A stretch of 64,000 nucleotides of DNA, from assembly GCA_013203665.1 (NCBI GenBank), contig JABMPU010000066.1:1-64000 (forward strand), read 5' to 3'. This document shows positions 3,563 to 14,100 of the stretch, in pieces. The translations under genes were made by a program, and so were the position numbers. The stretch is from Armatimonadota bacterium (GTDB taxonomy: Bacteria > Cloacimonadota > Cloacimonadia > Cloacimonadales > TCS61). The notes beneath the pieces are model-generated. The model was not told the DNA's origin and ran no database searches. It saw nothing but the letters and a program-made list of their open reading frames with translations. The stretch's first letter is position 1. Every line of letters starts with the position of its first letter.

Positions 3563-3594
3563 CCTTCCGATCAGGCAGTTGCCTGATCGGAAGG
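3563..3594. repeat. Perfect 15-bp inverted repeat (ccttccgatcaggca-gt-tgcctgatcggaagg)
   Basis: Direct reading; arms 3563-3577 and 3580-3594. Confidence 0.9.
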
Positions 3595-3674: not shown

Positions 3675-5999
3675 ATGCTGAACATTGAAATCAAAAATGA
3701 GAAGAAGATAAAAATATTCAATTTAAAAGGAAGATTCGATGGATATGGAGCTTCTTTATTTGATGAAAAAACAGAAACAATAAAAGATGATTTGAAGTTT
3801 TGGATTTTGAATTTTACAAACGTTGTTTTCTTATCCAGTGCAGGAATCAGGTCGTTAATCAAAACCGAGAAATGCTTAAGAAAAATATCCGCTTCTCTCT
3901 ATCTTGCAGGATTAAATTCCGATTTAAAAAAAGTGCTCAAACTCACAGGTCTTTTGCACATGTTCAAAATTTATGATACTCTTCAAGAAGCTCTTGATCT
4001 TATAAATAGAACTACTTCGATAAATGAAACTTTCGCTCAAATCGAGGAGAGAAAATACATTATAAAATGGCTTGAACCTCAAGATTCTTTTTTAGATTTT
4101 TGGGAGATTTCTGATAGTTCCGTTTGTGAATTTAATGCTGACAAACTTATTCCCACAAACTTGAAAGAACTGGAATTCGCCTTTGGAATCGGTGGCATTG
4201 GACATTCCAGAATTCAGGGATTCGAAACTCTTGGTGAGTTTATTTCCACACCTTTTTTTGCGGGTGTTATGCCTGCTGATGAGCACAATCTTTCGGATTT
4301 TATAATTTCTGAAAATCCTTCTGAAACACCTTTTTTTGTCTTTTCCGGAATCGGACTTTCCGGAAAACCGGAAATTATAATTGAATCAGATTCTGAAATC
4401 GAACTGAATAAAATCATATTTGATTATTTCCAAATCATAAAAAAAGAAAATGCTGACTCATTAATTATGGGATTTATAATTTTAGCAGAATCTGAAAATG
4501 TTACTGGTTCATTTTTCAAAACAAAAGAAGATATTCTGACAGAAAAATATCACATTGAAGATTCTAACGAAAAAAAGGGAATACTTCTTATCGGAACTGC
4601 AATTGAGAAAAGTATTCTGAAATTAGCAGTTAACAAGAATTTCCTTCATCAAATCCAGAAATTTCCTCTTGATGAGAACTTTTATTTTCATGGACATTGC
4701 GTAATTCTAAACAAACTCATTCAAACTGAAATTTCTTTGGAACCTCTTACGACTATTAGGCAAAACATCAAACTGGAAAACCTGGAAAAAGTTTTTCATC
4801 TTAACCCTGATACAAAATTGAAAAATGCAAAAACCTGGATTTCTATTCCAAAAAATATTCGTTCGTCAGATGAAAAAAGACTGAAAATCCAAAGTGATTC
4901 TGAATTAAAAAATGACTGGGAAATCATCATCAGAAAGATTTATTCCGAAGCAGGAGAAGTTATTCTTTCCGAACTTCAAGGTGGTTTTACATCCAAAACA
5001 TTCCAGGTAACAAGTTTTGATAAAGATGGCAGAAGGCTTCTACCGACAGTTCTGAAAATCGGCTCGATCAAGGATACGGAAAACGAGGTAAATGCGTACC
5101 ATAATTATGTAATAAAATTCATCTTAAACAACAGCACGACCATTATGGGAACGACCTTTCATGGAGATTTTGGTGGATTGCGATATAATTTTGTCGGCAT
5201 CAATGGACCGGATAGCAAACTAACCTGGCTTACAGATTATTATAAAAAATTGCCTGCTGAAAAGTTAATTCCTATTTTCGATCGGATCTTCACAGATGTT
5301 TTAAAACCGTGGTATGGTCAGCCAAAATGGGAGCTGATTTATCCTTTTAAAGAACATAGTCCATTCGAAATGTTCCCTTCAATTTTTGAATCTTTAGAAA
5401 CCAATCTTGGCATTTCTGCTGACGAAAAAACAATTTTCTGTGAAGAATTGAATACTGAATTACCAAATCCATATCATTTCTTAAAATATGAATATCCCAA
5501 ACAAAAAGAATTTTCCAAACTCTGGTATAAATCCATAACTCATGGTGATTTGAATATGCAGAATATTCTTCTGGATGAAGTTGAAAATATTTATATTATT
5601 GATTTTTCCGAAACAAAAGTTCGTAATATTATCTCTGATTTTGCCAGGTTAGAGCCAATTTTTAAAATCGAAATGACAAAACTGGAAACCGAAACTGATC
5701 TAAAAAATCTTTTGGAATTTGAAGCAGGACTTGCAGATGCGAATTCAATCAAAGATATTCCGAAATTCATTTATCGCGGCAATGATCCAATGGTAAAAAA
5801 AGCTTATAAAATGATCTGTAAAGTTCGTGAATATGCCAATATTGTAACTCTTTTTGATGATGACATTGTTCCCTATTTAATCGCAATTTTAGAGTGGACT
5901 TATCCGATTGTATGTTATGGAAGTGTTGGGCAAATAGAAAAAAAATATGCACTTTATAGTGCAGCTTTGATTTGTAAGAAGATTATGGAGGTAACATAA
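3675..5999 (+). CDS. STAS domain - unassigned middle region - aminoglycoside-phosphotransferase/kinase-like fusion protein
   Basis: N-term 'IKIFNLKGRFDGYGASLFDEKTETIKDDLKFWILNFTNVVFLSSAGIRSLIKTEKCLRKISASLYLAGLNSDLKKVLKLTGLLHMFKIYDTLQEAL' is STAS-like; C-term 'ITHGDLNMQNILLDEVENIYIIDFSETKVRNIISDFARLE' matches the APH-like HGDxxxxN...IDF motif. Confidence 0.75.
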   Translation: MLNIEIKNEKKIKIFNLKGRFDGYGASLFDEKTETIKDDLKFWILNFTNVVFLSSAGIRSLIKTEKCLRKISASLYLAGLNSDLKKVLKLTGLLHMFKIYDTLQEALDLINRTTSINETFAQIEERKYIIKWLEPQDSFLDFWEISDSSVCEFNADKLIPTNLKELEFAFGIGGIGHSRIQGFETLGEFISTPFFAGVMPADEHNLSDFIISENPSETPFFVFSGIGLSGKPEIIIESDSEIELNKIIFDYFQIIKKENADSLIMGFIILAESENVTGSFFKTKEDILTEKYHIEDSNEKKGILLIGTAIEKSILKLAVNKNFLHQIQKFPLDENFYFHGHCVILNKLIQTEISLEPLTTIRQNIKLENLEKVFHLNPDTKLKNAKTWISIPKNIRSSDEKRLKIQSDSELKNDWEIIIRKIYSEAGEVILSELQGGFTSKTFQVTSFDKDGRRLLPTVLKIGSIKDTENEVNAYHNYVIKFILNNSTTIMGTTFHGDFGGLRYNFVGINGPDSKLTWLTDYYKKLPAEKLIPIFDRIFTDVLKPWYGQPKWELIYPFKEHSPFEMFPSIFESLETNLGISADEKTIFCEELNTELPNPYHFLKYEYPKQKEFSKLWYKSITHGDLNMQNILLDEVENIYIIDFSETKVRNIISDFARLEPIFKIEMTKLETETDLKNLLEFEAGLADANSIKDIPKFIYRGNDPMVKKAYKMICKVREYANIVTLFDDDIVPYLIAILEWTYPIVCYGSVGQIEKKYALYSAALICKKIMEVT

Positions 6000-6047: not shown

Positions 6048-7291
6048 ATTAAATCTTTAACCACTTCTGAAACTTTAGCAATAATCTCTTCTTCTCCTTC
6101 AACTTTTCCATCCTGCATCAAAATCTTACCATCACAAATGACTGTATCTATGCAGCTTCGATTAGCAGAATAAACCATATTAGAAATTAAATTGTGATTG
6201 GGAACCAAATTTACATCATTTAAATCTACTAAAATAAAATCTGCTAAAGCTCCTTCTTTGATTTCTTCACAATTCAGGTTAAATATTTTTGCTCCATCTT
6301 TTGTAGCCATCTTATACGCTTCGTTAGCAGACATAATTGTTGTATCGTTGCTTTTTATTTTATGTAATAAAGCTGCAATCTTCATCTCTTCCAACATATC
6401 CAGGTTATTATTGGAAGCACAACCATCTGTTCCTAAAGCGATGGACAAACCAAATTTTTTCAGTTCTTTATAAGGGAAAAAACCGGAACAAAGTTTCATA
6501 TTTGAAGTAGGATTGTGAGCGATTTTCACATTATATTCTTTCAAGATTTGCATTTCTCTTTCATTTACCCAGATCACGTGGGCAGCAAGAACATTTGAAC
6601 TTAATAATCCAATATCCTGTAGATATTCAATGGGTCTTTTCCCATGTTTTTGAATGCAATCTTCAACTTCATTTTGAGTTTCGGAAATATGAATATGAAT
6701 CATAATATTATTTTCTTCTGAAAACTCTTTTGCCCAGATAAGACTTTCCTCTGATACAGTATAAATCGCATGAGGTCCCAAAGCAAAATTGATTCGCTCA
6801 GAATATCTTTTTGTTTCATGATAAAGTTGCTCATTCAAACGGATTTGCTGTTTTGCTTTCTCTTTATCAAAACCATCAATAAATACTGCAGAAACTGCAG
6901 CTCTAATGCCCATTTCTTCTACTGCACGTGCTGTTCCGTGATAATGCCAGTACATATCATTGAAAAAAGTTGTACCGGATTTTATCATTTCCAGGCAGGC
7001 TAATTTCGTCCCCCAAAAAACATCGTTCTCAGTTAATTTTGCTTCAAAAGGCCAGATTTTGTTTTGCAGCCAATCATCCAGAAGCAGATCATCAGCATAA
7101 CCTCGCATCAGAGTCATGGCAGCATGAGTGTGAGCATTGATGAAAGGAGGTAAAGCAACCATATTTTTTCCATCTATTTGATGCTCTGTTTCTTCTTCTA
7201 TATTATCAGCAATTTTTGAGATTTTGTTTCCTTTAATTAAAATATCTTTTTCTTCATTATTATGAACTACCTTTTTTATCAGAATTGTCAT
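6044..7291 (-). CDS. mtaD: Amidohydrolase, 5-methylthioadenosine/S-adenosylhomocysteine (5'-deoxyadenosine) deaminase family
   Basis: 415 aa; 'PPFINAHTHAAMTLMRGYADDLLLDDWL', 'GPHAIYTVSEE', 'HIHISETQNEVED', 'AHNPTSNMKLCSG', 'LGTDGCASNNNLDML'. Confidence 0.88.
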   Translation of the reverse strand: MTILIKKVVHNNEEKDILIKGNKISKIADNIEEETEHQIDGKNMVALPPFINAHTHAAMTLMRGYADDLLLDDWLQNKIWPFEAKLTENDVFWGTKLACLEMIKSGTTFFNDMYWHYHGTARAVEEMGIRAAVSAVFIDGFDKEKAKQQIRLNEQLYHETKRYSERINFALGPHAIYTVSEESLIWAKEFSEENNIMIHIHISETQNEVEDCIQKHGKRPIEYLQDIGLLSSNVLAAHVIWVNEREMQILKEYNVKIAHNPTSNMKLCSGFFPYKELKKFGLSIALGTDGCASNNNLDMLEEMKIAALLHKIKSNDTTIMSANEAYKMATKDGAKIFNLNCEEIKEGALADFILVDLNDVNLVPNHNLISNMVYSANRSCIDTVICDGKILMQDGKVEGEEEIIAKVSEVVKDLM

Positions 7292-7301
7292 TCTTTCTCC
7301 A

Positions 7302-7721
7302 TTATATTTTTAATAGATTTAAACCTGTTTCATTATCATATTCTCTTTCAATACTTCCCTCAACTTTTTCGATTACAACCTCGCAAGTTGCACTCACAAC
7401 CGCTTCATTCAGATGCCCTCCAAAAGTCTTTTGTTTCTCATCAGCCAAATTTATGTGTAGATGAAGATAAACTTCTCCATTCATTATTGAGATGTTTCCA
7501 TTTAAAGAGGTGATTTCATAATCTCCTAAAAGCTCTGTAGTAACGTATTTCTTTTCTTTTGGTTTGAACATTCCTATCCTCGCTCCGCAAACAGCTCCAA
7601 TCCCGGAAATAATCCCAAGTGTGATATTATTTTCTACACAAATTTTCGTTAAGGTTTCAACGATTTTTTCTTCTTTATCTATCCTGATTACAAATCTTTC
7701 ACCGAATCTTTTAAAATTCAT
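7302..7721 (-). CDS. PPC/DUF296 domain protein
   Basis: 139 aa; 'GIISGIGAVCGARIGMF', 'EITSLNGNISIMNGEVYLHLHINLADE...GGHL' typical of PPC (plant and prokaryote conserved) domain. Confidence 0.82.
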   Translation of the reverse strand: MNFKRFGERFVIRIDKEEKIVETLTKICVENNITLGIISGIGAVCGARIGMFKPKEKKYVTTELLGDYEITSLNGNISIMNGEVYLHLHINLADEKQKTFGGHLNEAVVSATCEVVIEKVEGSIEREYDNETGLNLLKI

Positions 7722-7885: not shown

Positions 7886-10606
7886 ATGAGTAAGAAAAGA
7901 GTTTATTTATTCGGAGATGGCAAAGCTGAAGGCAAAACAGAGATGAAAAATCTGTTGGGTGGAAAAGGTGCAAATCTCGCAGAAATGAATCTGATTGGCA
8001 TCCCTGTTCCTCCGGGATTTACCATCACAACAGAAGTTTGTACTGAATATAACGACCTGGGAAAAGAAGAAGTAATAAAACTGCTTAAAGATGAAGTTCA
8101 AAAAGGAATAACCAACATCGAGAAGATAATGAATTCCAAATTTGGTGATAAAGAAAATCCCTGTCTTGTTTCTGTTCGCTCAGGTGCACGAGTTTCCATG
8201 CCTGGTATGATGGATACTGTTCTGAATATCGGTTTAAATGATGAAGCAGTGAAAGGACTGACGAAAAAAAGTGGAAATGAGCGTTTTGTCTGGGATTCAT
8301 ACCGCAGATTTGTGCAGATGTTCGGAGATGTTGTGCTTGATTTGAAACCTGCTTCCAAAGAAGAAATTGATCCATTTGAAAAAATAATCGATGAAATAAA
8401 AGCAGAAAAGAATATTATTAATGATACTGATCTTTCTGCTGAAGACCTCAAAGAACTAGTAACCAGATTCAAAAAAGCCATCAAAGATGAAACCGGAAAT
8501 GATTTTCCCGAAGATCCCTGGACACAACTCTGGGGAGCAATCCTGGCAGTTTTTGATAGCTGGAATACAGAAAGAGCCGTTTATTATCGCCAAATAAATA
8601 ATATCTCCGATGATTGGGGAACTGCTGTAAATGTGCAGGCAATGGTTTACGGAAATATGGGAAATAATTCTGCAACAGGTGTTGCATTCACTCGTGATGC
8701 AGGTTCCGGTGAAGATATTTTCAATGGAGAATATCTCATCAATGCCCAGGGTGAAGATGTTGTAGCAGGTACCAGAACACCCCAGGAAATAACTCTGGAA
8801 GGCTCTAAACGTTGGGCAGGACTTACAGGCACATCCGAAACTGAAAGGAAAGAGCTGTATCCTTCTTTAGAAGAAACCATGCCGGAATTATATAAAGAAC
8901 TCTGTGAAATAGAAACAAAACTGGAAAACCATTATAAAGATATGCAGGATTTGGAATTTACAATCCAGGATGGAAAATTGTGGACTCTGCAAACCCGAAA
9001 CGGAAAGAGAACAGGTTTTTCTATGGTTAAGATGGCTATCGATATGCTCAAACAGGGAATGATCGATGAAAAGCTTGCCTTAATGCGAGTTGAACCAAAC
9101 CGACTCGATGAACTGCTTCATCCTGTTTTTGATCCTGATGCTGTTAAAAATGCTATAGTATTAACAAAAGGTCTGCCTGCTTCTCCGGGGGCAGCATCCG
9201 GACAAATCGTTTTCTTTGCAGATGAAGCTGAAGAATGGGCAAATGAAAACAAAGATGTGATTCTTGTCAGGATCGAAACTTCCCCTGAAGATCTACGTGG
9301 AATGAACGTTTCCAAAGGCATTCTCACTGCTCGCGGTGGCATGACTTCTCACGCTGCTGTTGTAGCACGCGGTATGGGAAAATGCTGTGTTTCCGGTGCT
9401 GGTTCTATCCGGATCGATTATAAGAAAAGAACATTAATAATTGGTGATGATACATTTAAAGAAGGTGACTGGATTTCTTTGAATGGAACAACTGGCGAAG
9501 TTTATAAGGGCAATGTTGAAACCAAAGACCCTGAATTAAGCGGAGATTTTGGTGAATTGATGTCTCTTTGCGATAAATATTCCAGGATGTATGTTCGCAC
9601 AAATGCAGATACACCGCACGATTCTAAAGTTGCCAGAAATTTTGGTGCTCGCGGAATCGGACTCACCAGAACTGAGCATATGTTCTTTGAAGGTGAAAGG
9701 ATCAAAGCTGTTCGTGAGATGATCCTGGCAGATGACCTTGCCGGCAGACAAAAAGCTTTGGCCAAGCTTCTTCCTATGCAAAGAGAAGACTTTGAAGGAA
9801 TCTTTGATGCAATGCATGACTTACCGGTTACAATTCGTCTTTTAGACCCTCCTCTTCATGAATTCGTACCCAAAGAATATGAAAACCAGAAAGAAATGGC
9901 TGATGAGATGGGAATTTCTGTGGAAGAGATCAAAGCTAAAGTAGAATCGCTTTCTGAGATAAATCCTATGCTCGGGCATCGCGGCTGCCGTTTGGGAATT
10001 ACCTATCCTGAAATCTCTGAAATGCAAACCAGGGCTATAATCGAAGCTGCGTTGAATCTGAAGAAAAAAGGAATAAATGCAATTCCCGAGATTATGATTC
10101 CCTTAATTGGAACTTTCCAGGAATTCAAACTTCAGGAAGAAATCGTGCGTGATACAGCACAAAAAATATTCGAAGAAAGAAATGATTCAATAGACTTTCT
10201 GGTGGGAACAATGATCGAAATTCCTCGTGCTGCCTTAACTGCCGATAAAGTAGCAAAATATGCTGAATTCTTCTCATTCGGTACAAATGACCTGACCCAG
10301 ATGACTTATGGTTACAGTCGTGATGACGCTGGAACATTCCTGCCCATATTCATTGAAAAAGGCATCCTGAAACACGATCCTTTCCAGGTATTAGACCAGG
10401 AAGGTGTGGGACAGTTAGTGGAAATGGCTACAAAAAAAGGAAGAAGCACGCGCCCGAACCTGAAAGTGGGAATTTGCGGAGAACATGGCGGAGAGCCGAA
10501 CTCCGTGAAATTCTGTCATAAAGTTGGCATGGATTATGTAAGCTGTTCACCCTATCGAGTCCCAATTGCTCGTCTTGCCGCTGCCCAAGCTTCAATAGAA
10601 GAATAA
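7886..10606 (+). CDS. ppdK: Pyruvate, phosphate dikinase
   Basis: Start placed at ATG 7886 (MSKKRVYLFGDGKAEGKTEMKNLLGGKGANLAEM) with upstream 'aggaga', rather than track M at 7775; 'GGMTSHAAVVARGMGKCCV' phospho-His region and 'GICGEHGGEPNSVKFCHKVGMDYVSCSPYRVPIARLAAAQA' C-terminus. Confidence 0.96.
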   Translation: MSKKRVYLFGDGKAEGKTEMKNLLGGKGANLAEMNLIGIPVPPGFTITTEVCTEYNDLGKEEVIKLLKDEVQKGITNIEKIMNSKFGDKENPCLVSVRSGARVSMPGMMDTVLNIGLNDEAVKGLTKKSGNERFVWDSYRRFVQMFGDVVLDLKPASKEEIDPFEKIIDEIKAEKNIINDTDLSAEDLKELVTRFKKAIKDETGNDFPEDPWTQLWGAILAVFDSWNTERAVYYRQINNISDDWGTAVNVQAMVYGNMGNNSATGVAFTRDAGSGEDIFNGEYLINAQGEDVVAGTRTPQEITLEGSKRWAGLTGTSETERKELYPSLEETMPELYKELCEIETKLENHYKDMQDLEFTIQDGKLWTLQTRNGKRTGFSMVKMAIDMLKQGMIDEKLALMRVEPNRLDELLHPVFDPDAVKNAIVLTKGLPASPGAASGQIVFFADEAEEWANENKDVILVRIETSPEDLRGMNVSKGILTARGGMTSHAAVVARGMGKCCVSGAGSIRIDYKKRTLIIGDDTFKEGDWISLNGTTGEVYKGNVETKDPELSGDFGELMSLCDKYSRMYVRTNADTPHDSKVARNFGARGIGLTRTEHMFFEGERIKAVREMILADDLAGRQKALAKLLPMQREDFEGIFDAMHDLPVTIRLLDPPLHEFVPKEYENQKEMADEMGISVEEIKAKVESLSEINPMLGHRGCRLGITYPEISEMQTRAIIEAALNLKKKGINAIPEIMIPLIGTFQEFKLQEEIVRDTAQKIFEERNDSIDFLVGTMIEIPRAALTADKVAKYAEFFSFGTNDLTQMTYGYSRDDAGTFLPIFIEKGILKHDPFQVLDQEGVGQLVEMATKKGRSTRPNLKVGICGEHGGEPNSVKFCHKVGMDYVSCSPYRVPIARLAAAQASIEE

Positions 10607-10623
10607 ACTCGAGTTCAGATGAT

Positions 10624-10810
10624 TGTCATTCACGCAAAGCCTGTCATTCCCGCGAAAGCGGGAATCTAAGAACACTGAATAATATTTTTTTTCTCACTTT
10701 TGTAGATTCCCAATCGAGTTGGGAATGACAGTAACGTTTATTGGTCTGTCATTCCCGCAAAGTCTGTCGTTCCCGCAAGGCTTGTCATTCCCGCAAAAGC
10801 GGGAATCTAA
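10624..10810. repeat. Cluster of palindromic 'tgtcattcccgcgaaagcgggaatct' / 'attcccaatcgagttgggaatgaca' repeats
   Basis: At least five copies or half-copies read directly between ppdK and the Fn3 gene. Confidence 0.9.
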
Positions 10811-11193
10811 TAAACCGGAAATCATGAAAAAAAGGTATTTAATTAAAAAAATATTTAGAAGGTTTTTATATAACATCTCAGTTTTTTTAATCTTCCTACT
10901 TATCTTTATAGGTTCCTGGTGTCTTCCTCCCAAAACTTTGGAAAGAATAATAAAAAGACTAAAACTCAAATACACAACAGAACATATACATAAAGATTAA
11001 CAACCCTGTCAGTTATGGCTGGGACTGAAGCAAAAAATAATCCTACGCCGTTCACGGCGTTACAAAATGTTCAGAGAACCAGCAAATCATCGTTTTTTTA
11101 CCACTATCAACTTTCCGGAGCCTTGAAACTTCTTGACATACTTTCTTAATTTTTGTTTTTAAAAAATGAATTTCATTTGTTAGGAGGTTTAGA

Positions 11194-14100
11194 ATGAAAA
11201 ATTATTTTATTCTTTTATTAATAGTATTATTTTCCATCACAACCTGCACGAAAAAAACCACATCACCTGAAGAACAATTATTACCACCAGCTAACTTACA
11301 ACTTACTTTAGTAGAAGAAAATATTGTAACAATTTCCTGGCAGGATAACTCATCTGATGAAACAAAATTCTTTATCGATAGAAAGAAAGGTGAGTATGCC
11401 TGGTTTGAAAATTATGGAGAAGTGGAAGCAAACATTACAGCATTTACAGACAACATCACAACGAATTCTGATACGGTTTATTCTTATAAAATTAGAGCAT
11501 TTGACGGTGATGATTATTCTGAATATTCTACAGAAGTTGGCTGGTTTTCAGAATTTACAGTTCCATCAGATTTACTTCTTGAACAAATTTACCAGGATAG
11601 TATCAGAATAACCTGGTCTGATAACAGCATTGGTGAATTAAATTTTAGAATCGATAAAAAGATTGGAATAAATGATTGGCAGCAAAACTACAAAATTCTC
11701 GATTCCGACTCAACTACTTATATCGATTATAATCCAACCCTGTTTGATTCTTGCTTTTACCGTGTTTATGCTGTGAGTGGAACTTCTTTTTCAGATTATT
11801 CTCAAAATTACATTATCCCTTTTCTACCAGCTCCAACAAATTTTCAAATCGAAGGACTTGAAGCTACATCTATAAAACTTACTTGGGAAGATAACTCTGC
11901 AGATGAAGATGGATTCAAAATATTCAAATCTGAAGATGACAGTGTTTGGACATCTACAACTGTTCCTGAAAATACAGAAGAATGGATTGATGAAGATGTT
12001 ATTCCCGGAATTATAAATTTTTACAAAGTCTGTGCCTATATAGACACAAATTATTCTGCTTTTGTTCAAGACAACATAAATACAATGTCCCAACCGGAAG
12101 ATTTGTTTTTAGAACAATTGGATGTAACTTGTTTTCAGCTAACCTGGATTGATAATAGTGCATTTGAGCAAGGTTTCAAAATTGATAGAAAGATAGATAA
12201 TGAAGAATGGATCAATGAAATTAGCAGTGTTGGCTCTAACATTACACAGTGGATCGATGAAGATGTTAGAAGAAGTTTTGAAGTTGTCTATTACAGGGTG
12301 TATGCTTTTCACGAAAATTATAATTCTGCTAAAATCGAATCAAATAGTAACATTGTTTTTCCGGCACCGACAAATTTACAAATAGAGCAATTAACAACCT
12401 GTGAAATAAGTTTAATCTGGAATGATAATAGTGATGGAGAAGAAGGTTTTAAGATTGACCGGAAAATTGGAACAGGTAATTGGATAACTAATTATGGCAA
12501 TGTTTCTGCCAATACTGAAGAATGGATAGACACTCAGCCTGTCTTTAATGAAATAAATTATTATCGTGTTTATGCTTTTGCCGGTAATAATTATTCTCTT
12601 TTTGTAGAAGGCGAGGTTAATAATATTATTCCAGCACCAAGTAATTTTGTAGCAATTCAGCAAAACGTTCATACTTTTGATCTTTCCTGGCTGGATAATT
12701 GTGATTTCGAAGAAGGCTTTGAAATCGAAAGAAAAATTGATAATGGTAATTGGTCATTAATTGCTACACTTCCAGATAATACCACATCTTTTACTGATGA
12801 CTTAAATATGAGAAATAGAGGTTGGGAAACAGTCTATTATCGGCTTTATGCTTTCTTTCAGGATAACTCTTCTGACACGATCGAAACTAACTGTAACATC
12901 TATTTTCCGGCACCTTCAAATTTAACTTATCAGACTATAAATTTATCCTCAATTCAATTTAATTGGACATACAGCAGCTATGATGAAGATGGATTTAAAA
13001 TTGATAAAAAAATTGGAAACGATGATTGGCAAATTGAATATGGCATTGTTACTAATTCTTCTTTTGAATGGATAGATGAGAATGCTGAAATAAACGAAAC
13101 ACTCAAATATCGTGTTTATGCCTTTAGTGGTGAAAATACTTCAGATTACATCGAAACCGGAGAAATTGATAATTCTATTCCAATCCCAACTAATCTAAAT
13201 GGAAATCCTCTCGATGTATCTCAAATTTATTTAGAATGGACGGATAATTCCATTGAAGAGGACGGATTTAGAATTGAACAAAAAGAGAATGAAGGAAGTT
13301 TTGTAGAAATTGGAACAGCTACCCAAATTAATTATACTGCATCAAATCTGAATTTAGATTCTGACTATACATTCAGAGTTCGTGCTTATAAAGATATTCA
13401 TAATTCCGGCTATAGTAACGAATGTTTTATGAATATAAGCCAAAATGTTGCTCCCTCAGATTTATCCGGAATTGTGTCTATCGATGGTATTCAAATCCAA
13501 TGGATTGATAATTGCAGTTTTGAAACCGGCTTTATTATCCAGAGAAAAAAAGAAGGGGAAGAATATCAAACCATCCATATTACTGATGAAAATATTACTG
13601 ATTATTTGAATTTTGATATTGAACCTCTCACAACCTACTTTTACAGAGTTTCTGCTGAATTAGGAATTTATCAATCAGTTTGGTGTGAAGAAATAAATCT
13701 TCTCTCTTTTCCGGATTACATTATTGTCGATTTAAATGGAAATGGAAATTACACAAGCATCCAGGATGCAATTTATGGCTCGAATGACGGTGATTCTGTT
13801 ATTGTAAATGTTGGTACTTATTATGAAAATATAAATTACTATGGTAAACAGATTACTCTTGGCAGCTTATATCTTTTAATACAAGATGATTATTACATTT
13901 CCAATACAATCATCGATGGTAATGCTAATTATAGTGTTGTTACTTTTGAAAGTAGCGAGGATGAGGATTCAAAATTAATTGGTTTTACCATCACAAACGG
14001 TTATGCATCTAATGGTGGAGGAATTTACTGTGATAATTCTAATCCAAGTTTATCTCATCTCATTATTAGTGGAAATTCTGCTGGTGAGATAGCCGGTACT

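Follow-up and report, generated by a model that had tools for sequence, protein, structure and literature searches.

The anti-sigma factor antagonists SpoIIAA and RsbV share the STAS fold, and their usual kinases, SpoIIAB and RsbW, belong to the GHKL family; Ser58 is the phosphorylated serine of SpoIIAA. In a different setting, the STAS protein MlaB binds its own ABC ATPase, and its phospho-site residue, Thr52, lies close to the middle of the interface; whether MlaB is phosphorylated is an open question (PMC7367683). Kinases of the TCAD9 family have been reported together with vWA-MoxR-VMAP and CRISPR-linked CARF/SAVED proteins (PMC10910872). Here we describe a gene that joins a STAS domain to a TCAD9 kinase, with a third domain between them. 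The gene occupies positions 3675-5999 of the forward strand of the 64,000-nucleotide stretch of contig JABMPU010000066.1 that we analyzed, hereafter called the window.

Architecture of the STAS–X–TCAD9 protein

The gene is one open reading frame of 774 amino acids, with an ATG start and an AAGGAG ribosome site 5' of it. Comparison with its congener yielded a dN/dS of 0.125 for the whole gene (0.10 for the STAS part, 0.16 for the middle, and 0.09 for the kinase), and all three parts are thus under purifying selection. A real reading frame, profile matches, a fusion that is kept in homologues, and a low dN/dS together place the gene far beyond chance. The AlphaFold model of the full 774-aa chain (19 sequences) had a mean pLDDT of 87. 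The architecture is firm: a single chain carries a STAS phospho-switch, an unnamed domain of predicted acetolactate decarboxylase (ALDC) fold, which we call X, and a kinase with intact catalytic residues.

The N-terminal 107 residues (3675-3995, forward strand) had been described as STAS-like in an initial annotation made from the sequence, and our searches bear this out. Pfam STAS (PF01740) matched residues 4-106 with an E value of 8.6e-15 (54.8 bits, against a cut-off of 22.6), the domain aligned with the PDB sequences of SpoIIAA, TM1442, and RsbV, and Foldseek placed the STAS part of the AlphaFold model on 1th8_B with a TM-score of 0.91. Ser55 (codon 3837-3839) aligned opposite Ser58 of SpoIIAA and is a candidate phospho-acceptor. 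The serine of this SSxG motif was kept in all 36 sequences, fusions and relatives together.

The kinase spans residues 425-774 (4947-5996, forward strand). TCAD9 (PF19974) matched the whole protein with an E value of 3e-48 (165.5 bits, against a cut-off of 40), with its best stretch at residues 593-721, and both lobes were covered (residues 429-554 on model positions 4-146 and 594-721 on 275-400). The motif 'HGDLNMQNIL...YIIDFSE', from which the initial annotation had predicted an APH-like kinase, falls at residues 623-647 within TCAD9, and the region of its HGD also gave sub-threshold Pfam matches to APH, RIO1, and Kdo. The landmarks of a kinase could be assigned throughout: a G-rich loop at 436-437, Lys461 (VLKIG), Glu471, His623-Gly-Asp625, Asn630, and Asp643 (IDFSE). 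In an alignment of complete fusions (A2), Lys461, Glu471, the HGD, Asn630, and Asp643 were invariant in 12 of 12, and the nearest solved fold by Foldseek was APH(3')-Ia (E value of 2.7e-6); a BFVD search returned generic kinases only. The prediction of an APH-like kinase therefore stands, and the domain is apparently functional, judging by its intact catalytic residues. It is also the best-conserved part of the protein, with 70-71% identity in the L080-L082 clade compared with 42-43% for STAS and 31-33% for X.

TCAD9 and STAS were also found in other combinations. At locus L191 (4601-6274), Pfam identified a receiver domain fused to a TCAD9 kinase; a second TCAD9 protein (L189, 3887-5683) has an N-terminus that looks receiver-like by eye and drew no Pfam match there. 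STAS is fused directly to an unrelated TIGR02172-type (APH) phosphotransferase at L014 (11818-12984) and L179 (1637-2806), both in one Verrucomicrobiota genome that also has a STAS–X–TCAD9 fusion.

Domain X and its candidate metal site

Domain X covers residues 113-408 (4011-4898, forward strand). The initial annotation recognized no motif here, which holds for sequence families: the middle of the window protein had no match in Pfam, NCBIfam, PHROGs, PADLOC, or the PDB sequences, 30 homologous middle domains matched no family in Pfam or PDB (stray single-member Pfam matches were noise), and none of the 30 matched PF03306, acetolactate decarboxylase, at an E value of ≤10. What had been overlooked is that the region forms a domain of its own, with the ALDC/PPC fold and a Glu/His site that is conserved. 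X modeled alone by AlphaFold (30 sequences) reached a pLDDT of 93.1 and a pTM of 0.92. When this model was compared with the PDB by Foldseek, the top 19 matches were all acetolactate decarboxylase, PTD012, or PPC proteins, followed mostly by noise; the best E values were 1.4e-8 for ALDC and 5.7e-7 for human PTD012, and those for PPC/AF0104-like proteins ran from 4.6e-5 to 9.8e-3. As modeled, X belongs to the AF0104/ALDC/Ptd012-like fold, the SCOP class of these top matches. Because the TM-scores against ALDC were moderate (0.45-0.50 when normalized by query length, 0.53-0.65 by target length), we regard X as a divergent family of the fold and not as an ALDC. The fold comparison, which the initial annotation had proposed for the middle and C-terminal parts, thus returned an ALDC/PPC fold and an APH kinase fold, respectively. 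A first guess for the middle, a degenerate PP2C/SpoIIE domain suggested by a GIGGIG motif, was ruled out by the same comparison.

Profile alignment with hhalign of 20 kinase-free X domains against 30 ALDCs gave a probability of 43% and a score of 35.8, with the GE of X aligned to the GE of ALDC. Column shuffles scored at most 22.1, whereas shuffles of 20-column blocks reached 44.6; since the latter exceed the true score, the sequence signal between X and ALDC amounts to a single local motif. We found no paper linking a STAS domain with acetolactate decarboxylase. A PCC/PPC domain protein (E value of 1.8e-34) is encoded two genes downstream of the fusion, on the reverse strand (7302-7721); that it shares the fold class of X is probably a coincidence.

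Solved ALDCs carry 'FGIGT..LDGE' and 'HxHF...GGH'; the counterparts in X are 'FGIGG...GEF' and 'HxH...H', and the strands that bear them follow the same order. Glu188, His339, His341, and His375 of the window protein mirror the ALDC metal site, and we infer from fold and conservation that they form a predicted metal site. All four residues were present in 20 of 20 kinase-free STAS-X relatives and in 7 of 16 fusions, the window copy among them. The fusion at L009 has three of the four left, and the other eight are without Glu188 and His339, five of them without any of the four. In most fusions that do not keep the full set, Glu188 and the histidines were lost largely together; an independent-pairs test of this joint loss was not significant, the independent losses being too few. 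Because eight fusions with a degraded site have an intact Ser55, and an intact kinase where checked, gating by a ligand at the metal site could not be universal.

Distribution, neighborhoods, and possible function

Full fusions were found in metagenome-assembled genomes labeled Cloacimonadota, Latescibacterota, Dependentiae, Syntrophobacteraceae, Verrucomicrobiota, and Bacteroidota. The labels conflict in one case: the L008 record bears the title Armatimonadota, although the genome search puts it in the genus of the window and other relatives are titled Cloacimonadota. Carriers are rare. They made up 9 of the 125 genomes in the phylum set of the window (some with incomplete genes at the end of a contig) and 2 of the 57 in the class set of genome G127; two further phylum sets had 3 carriers in 398 genomes and 1 in 291. 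Homologues keep the fusion, as the initial annotation had supposed: in the tree, 16 fusions formed one clade, separated from all kinase-free STAS-X proteins by a branch with support of 100/99 (four rows were long-branched). This single clade is most simply explained if the parts were fused once and the fusion was then passed on vertically and probably also laterally. At L083 in genome G114, only the STAS part of the fusion gene is left (6462-6908, 148 aa), with the neighbors that it has at L080-L082 on either side; X and the kinase were either lost naturally or fell into a gap of the assembly.

In the window, genes for MtnA and a class II aldolase lie upstream of the fusion and a gene for an amidohydrolase resembling MTA/5'-deoxyadenosine deaminase lies downstream, with PCC, PPDK, and fn3 proteins among the further flanking genes. 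The gap between the aldolase and STAS genes holds a 15-bp perfect inverted repeat (3563-3594; loop GT, -29 kcal/mol, z of -7.6) with no T-run after it, either a palindromic element or an attenuator. Repeats of the form TGTCATTCCCGC...GCGGGAAT at 10624-10820 make up an interspersed palindromic element. No neighbor was conserved across the fusion loci, most of which have housekeeping flanks. The survey of homologues that the initial annotation had suggested nevertheless revealed partner-switch genes beside three of them: a SpoIIE–RsbW–STAS cluster directly upstream on the same strand (L009), a receiver–SpoIIE gene directly upstream (L014), and convergent STAS and Cache–HAMP–SpoIIE genes (L016). 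The window gene has none beside it; such loci occur elsewhere in its genome.

Kinase-free STAS-X genes lie mostly in an operon of the order substrate-binding protein (PF04392), STAS-X, permease (BPD_transp_2), and ABC ATPase (for example, at L072, with STAS-X at 9900-11168 and the ATPase at 12085-12897). These operons, assigned with Pfam for the examples and by reading for the others, span several phyla; four kinase-free loci (L142-L145) lie outside them. At L010, a gene pair at 141-1780, ABC_sub_bind and GPP34 (of the Golgi phosphoprotein 3 family), is divergent from the fusion, and the same pair (1005-2643) flanks STAS-X at L074, where GPP34 was identified by Pfam and the binding protein by reading.

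What might such a chain do? We tentatively read it, with not quite even confidence, as a one-chain phospho-signaling module in which a ligand-gated kinase phosphorylates a STAS switch. Domain X would gate the kinase on binding a metal or a small molecule that chelates one, and the kinase would phosphorylate Ser55 in cis or the serine of a partner STAS protein. Phosphorylation would then set the docking of STAS on its partner, which may be the GHKL anti-sigma-type kinase of partner-switch loci or an ABC ATPase as in the STAS-X operons, and the reset would come from a separate PP2C phosphatase of SpoIIE type. The kinase could plausibly control the STAS domain of its own chain. The signaling reading is supported by the invariant catalytic residues, the SSxG serine and the metal site with the frequencies given above, and the single fusion clade with the kinase as its best-conserved part. 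The partner-switch genes at three fusion loci, the STAS–TIGR02172 and receiver–TCAD9 fusions, and the presence of STAS-X in ABC operons, taken with the binding of MlaB to its ABC ATPase, argue in the same direction. Against it stand the lack of a conserved neighbor, the degraded X site of eight fusions, and the kinase substrate, which is the weakest step because APH-fold kinases often act on small molecules.

The substrate of the kinase might accordingly be a small molecule, perhaps one that X binds or produces, and STAS would merely dock or oligomerize the enzyme; this is a serious possibility that we nonetheless consider doubtful. The closest solved fold, APH(3')-Ia, and the weak APH matches in Pfam fit it, and Kaur et al. 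2020 suggest low-molecular-weight substrates for the APH-type kinases of conflict systems (PMC7159879). However, STAS was paired with a kinase at least two times, with different kinases, and the phospho-acceptor serine was never lost, neither of which a small-molecule kinase requires. Domain X could itself be an active metal enzyme, decarboxylase- or hydrolase-like, within a regulated bifunctional metabolic protein, as its complete Glu and three His in the window copy and the kinase-free relatives and its best structural matches, ALDC and PTD012, would suggest. We think this unlikely: the spacing and surrounding sequence are unlike those of ALDC, the profile similarity comes down to one short motif, eight fusions carry the site in degraded form, and no metabolic gene is conserved alongside.

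Two further readings take their cue from the family and from the flanks. The initial annotation had suspected a link to the kinase-like 'ternary complex associated' domains (TCAD) of NTP-dependent conflict systems, and membership of TCAD9, a family found with the MoxR–vWA–VMAP systems cited above, proved correct. A conflict-system role, in contrast, appears very improbable: the window flanks encode MtnA, aldolase, deaminase, PCC, PPDK, and fn3 proteins, no MoxR, vWA, VMAP, or effector gene was recognized at the fusion loci examined (most genes read by eye), and a plasmid search gave no match for the fusion. Least probable of all is a regulator or enzyme of 5'-deoxynucleoside/methylthioribose salvage, the neighborhood to which the initial annotation had attached meaning. 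Among the fusion loci examined, the window and its congener (L008) are the only two with the MtnA, aldolase, and deaminase-like genes beside the fusion, and in the window the 15-bp hairpin separates the aldolase from the STAS gene.

Returning to the signaling reading, the protein appears to be a new type of sensor-switch, complete in itself, because kinase-free relatives of its STAS and X parts are found inside ABC-transporter operons. More speculatively, and on present evidence somewhat unlikely as a whole, STAS-X may be an unrecognized sensor-switch family in which the ALDC-fold domain senses a metabolite and a SpoIIAA-type phospho-serine STAS gates the ATPase of an ABC importer; the TCAD9 fusions would bring their own non-GHKL kinase for that serine, making a control loop for transporters or partner switches. 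The analysis picks out a domain family that lacks a name in the libraries searched, connects it with STAS switches and ABC importers in several phyla, and puts forward a non-GHKL kinase as a candidate for phosphorylating STAS serines. The question raised by MlaB, whether STAS regulators of ABC transporters are phosphorylated and by what, becomes testable in one polypeptide.

Comparison with known systems

With SpoIIAA and RsbV the protein shares the STAS fold, the position of the phospho-serine, and, beside some copies, SpoIIE and RsbW; it differs in that its STAS domain shares a chain with X and with a kinase whose fold is not that of the GHKL kinases. It resembles the TCAD9 conflict-system kinases in matching both lobes of an APH-like kinase, but here the kinase is fused to STAS-X without a MoxR/vWA/VMAP context, and about 40 residues separate its lobes compared with about 128 in the Pfam model. 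The STAS–TIGR02172 fusions likewise unite STAS and an APH-type kinase in a single chain, although without an X domain and with another kinase subfamily. X has the fold, the FGIG...GE motif, the HxH, and the third His of ALDC, PTD012, and PPC (AF0104) proteins; unlike them, it has no detectable sequence family membership and is fused to STAS, and its third His follows the HxH by about 34 residues compared with about 10 in ALDC. Finally, the STAS-X relatives are like MlaB–MlaF in that a STAS protein is encoded with an ABC transporter, whereas their transporters are of the PF04392/BPD_transp_2 type, they carry the additional X domain, and the window copy lies outside an ABC operon.
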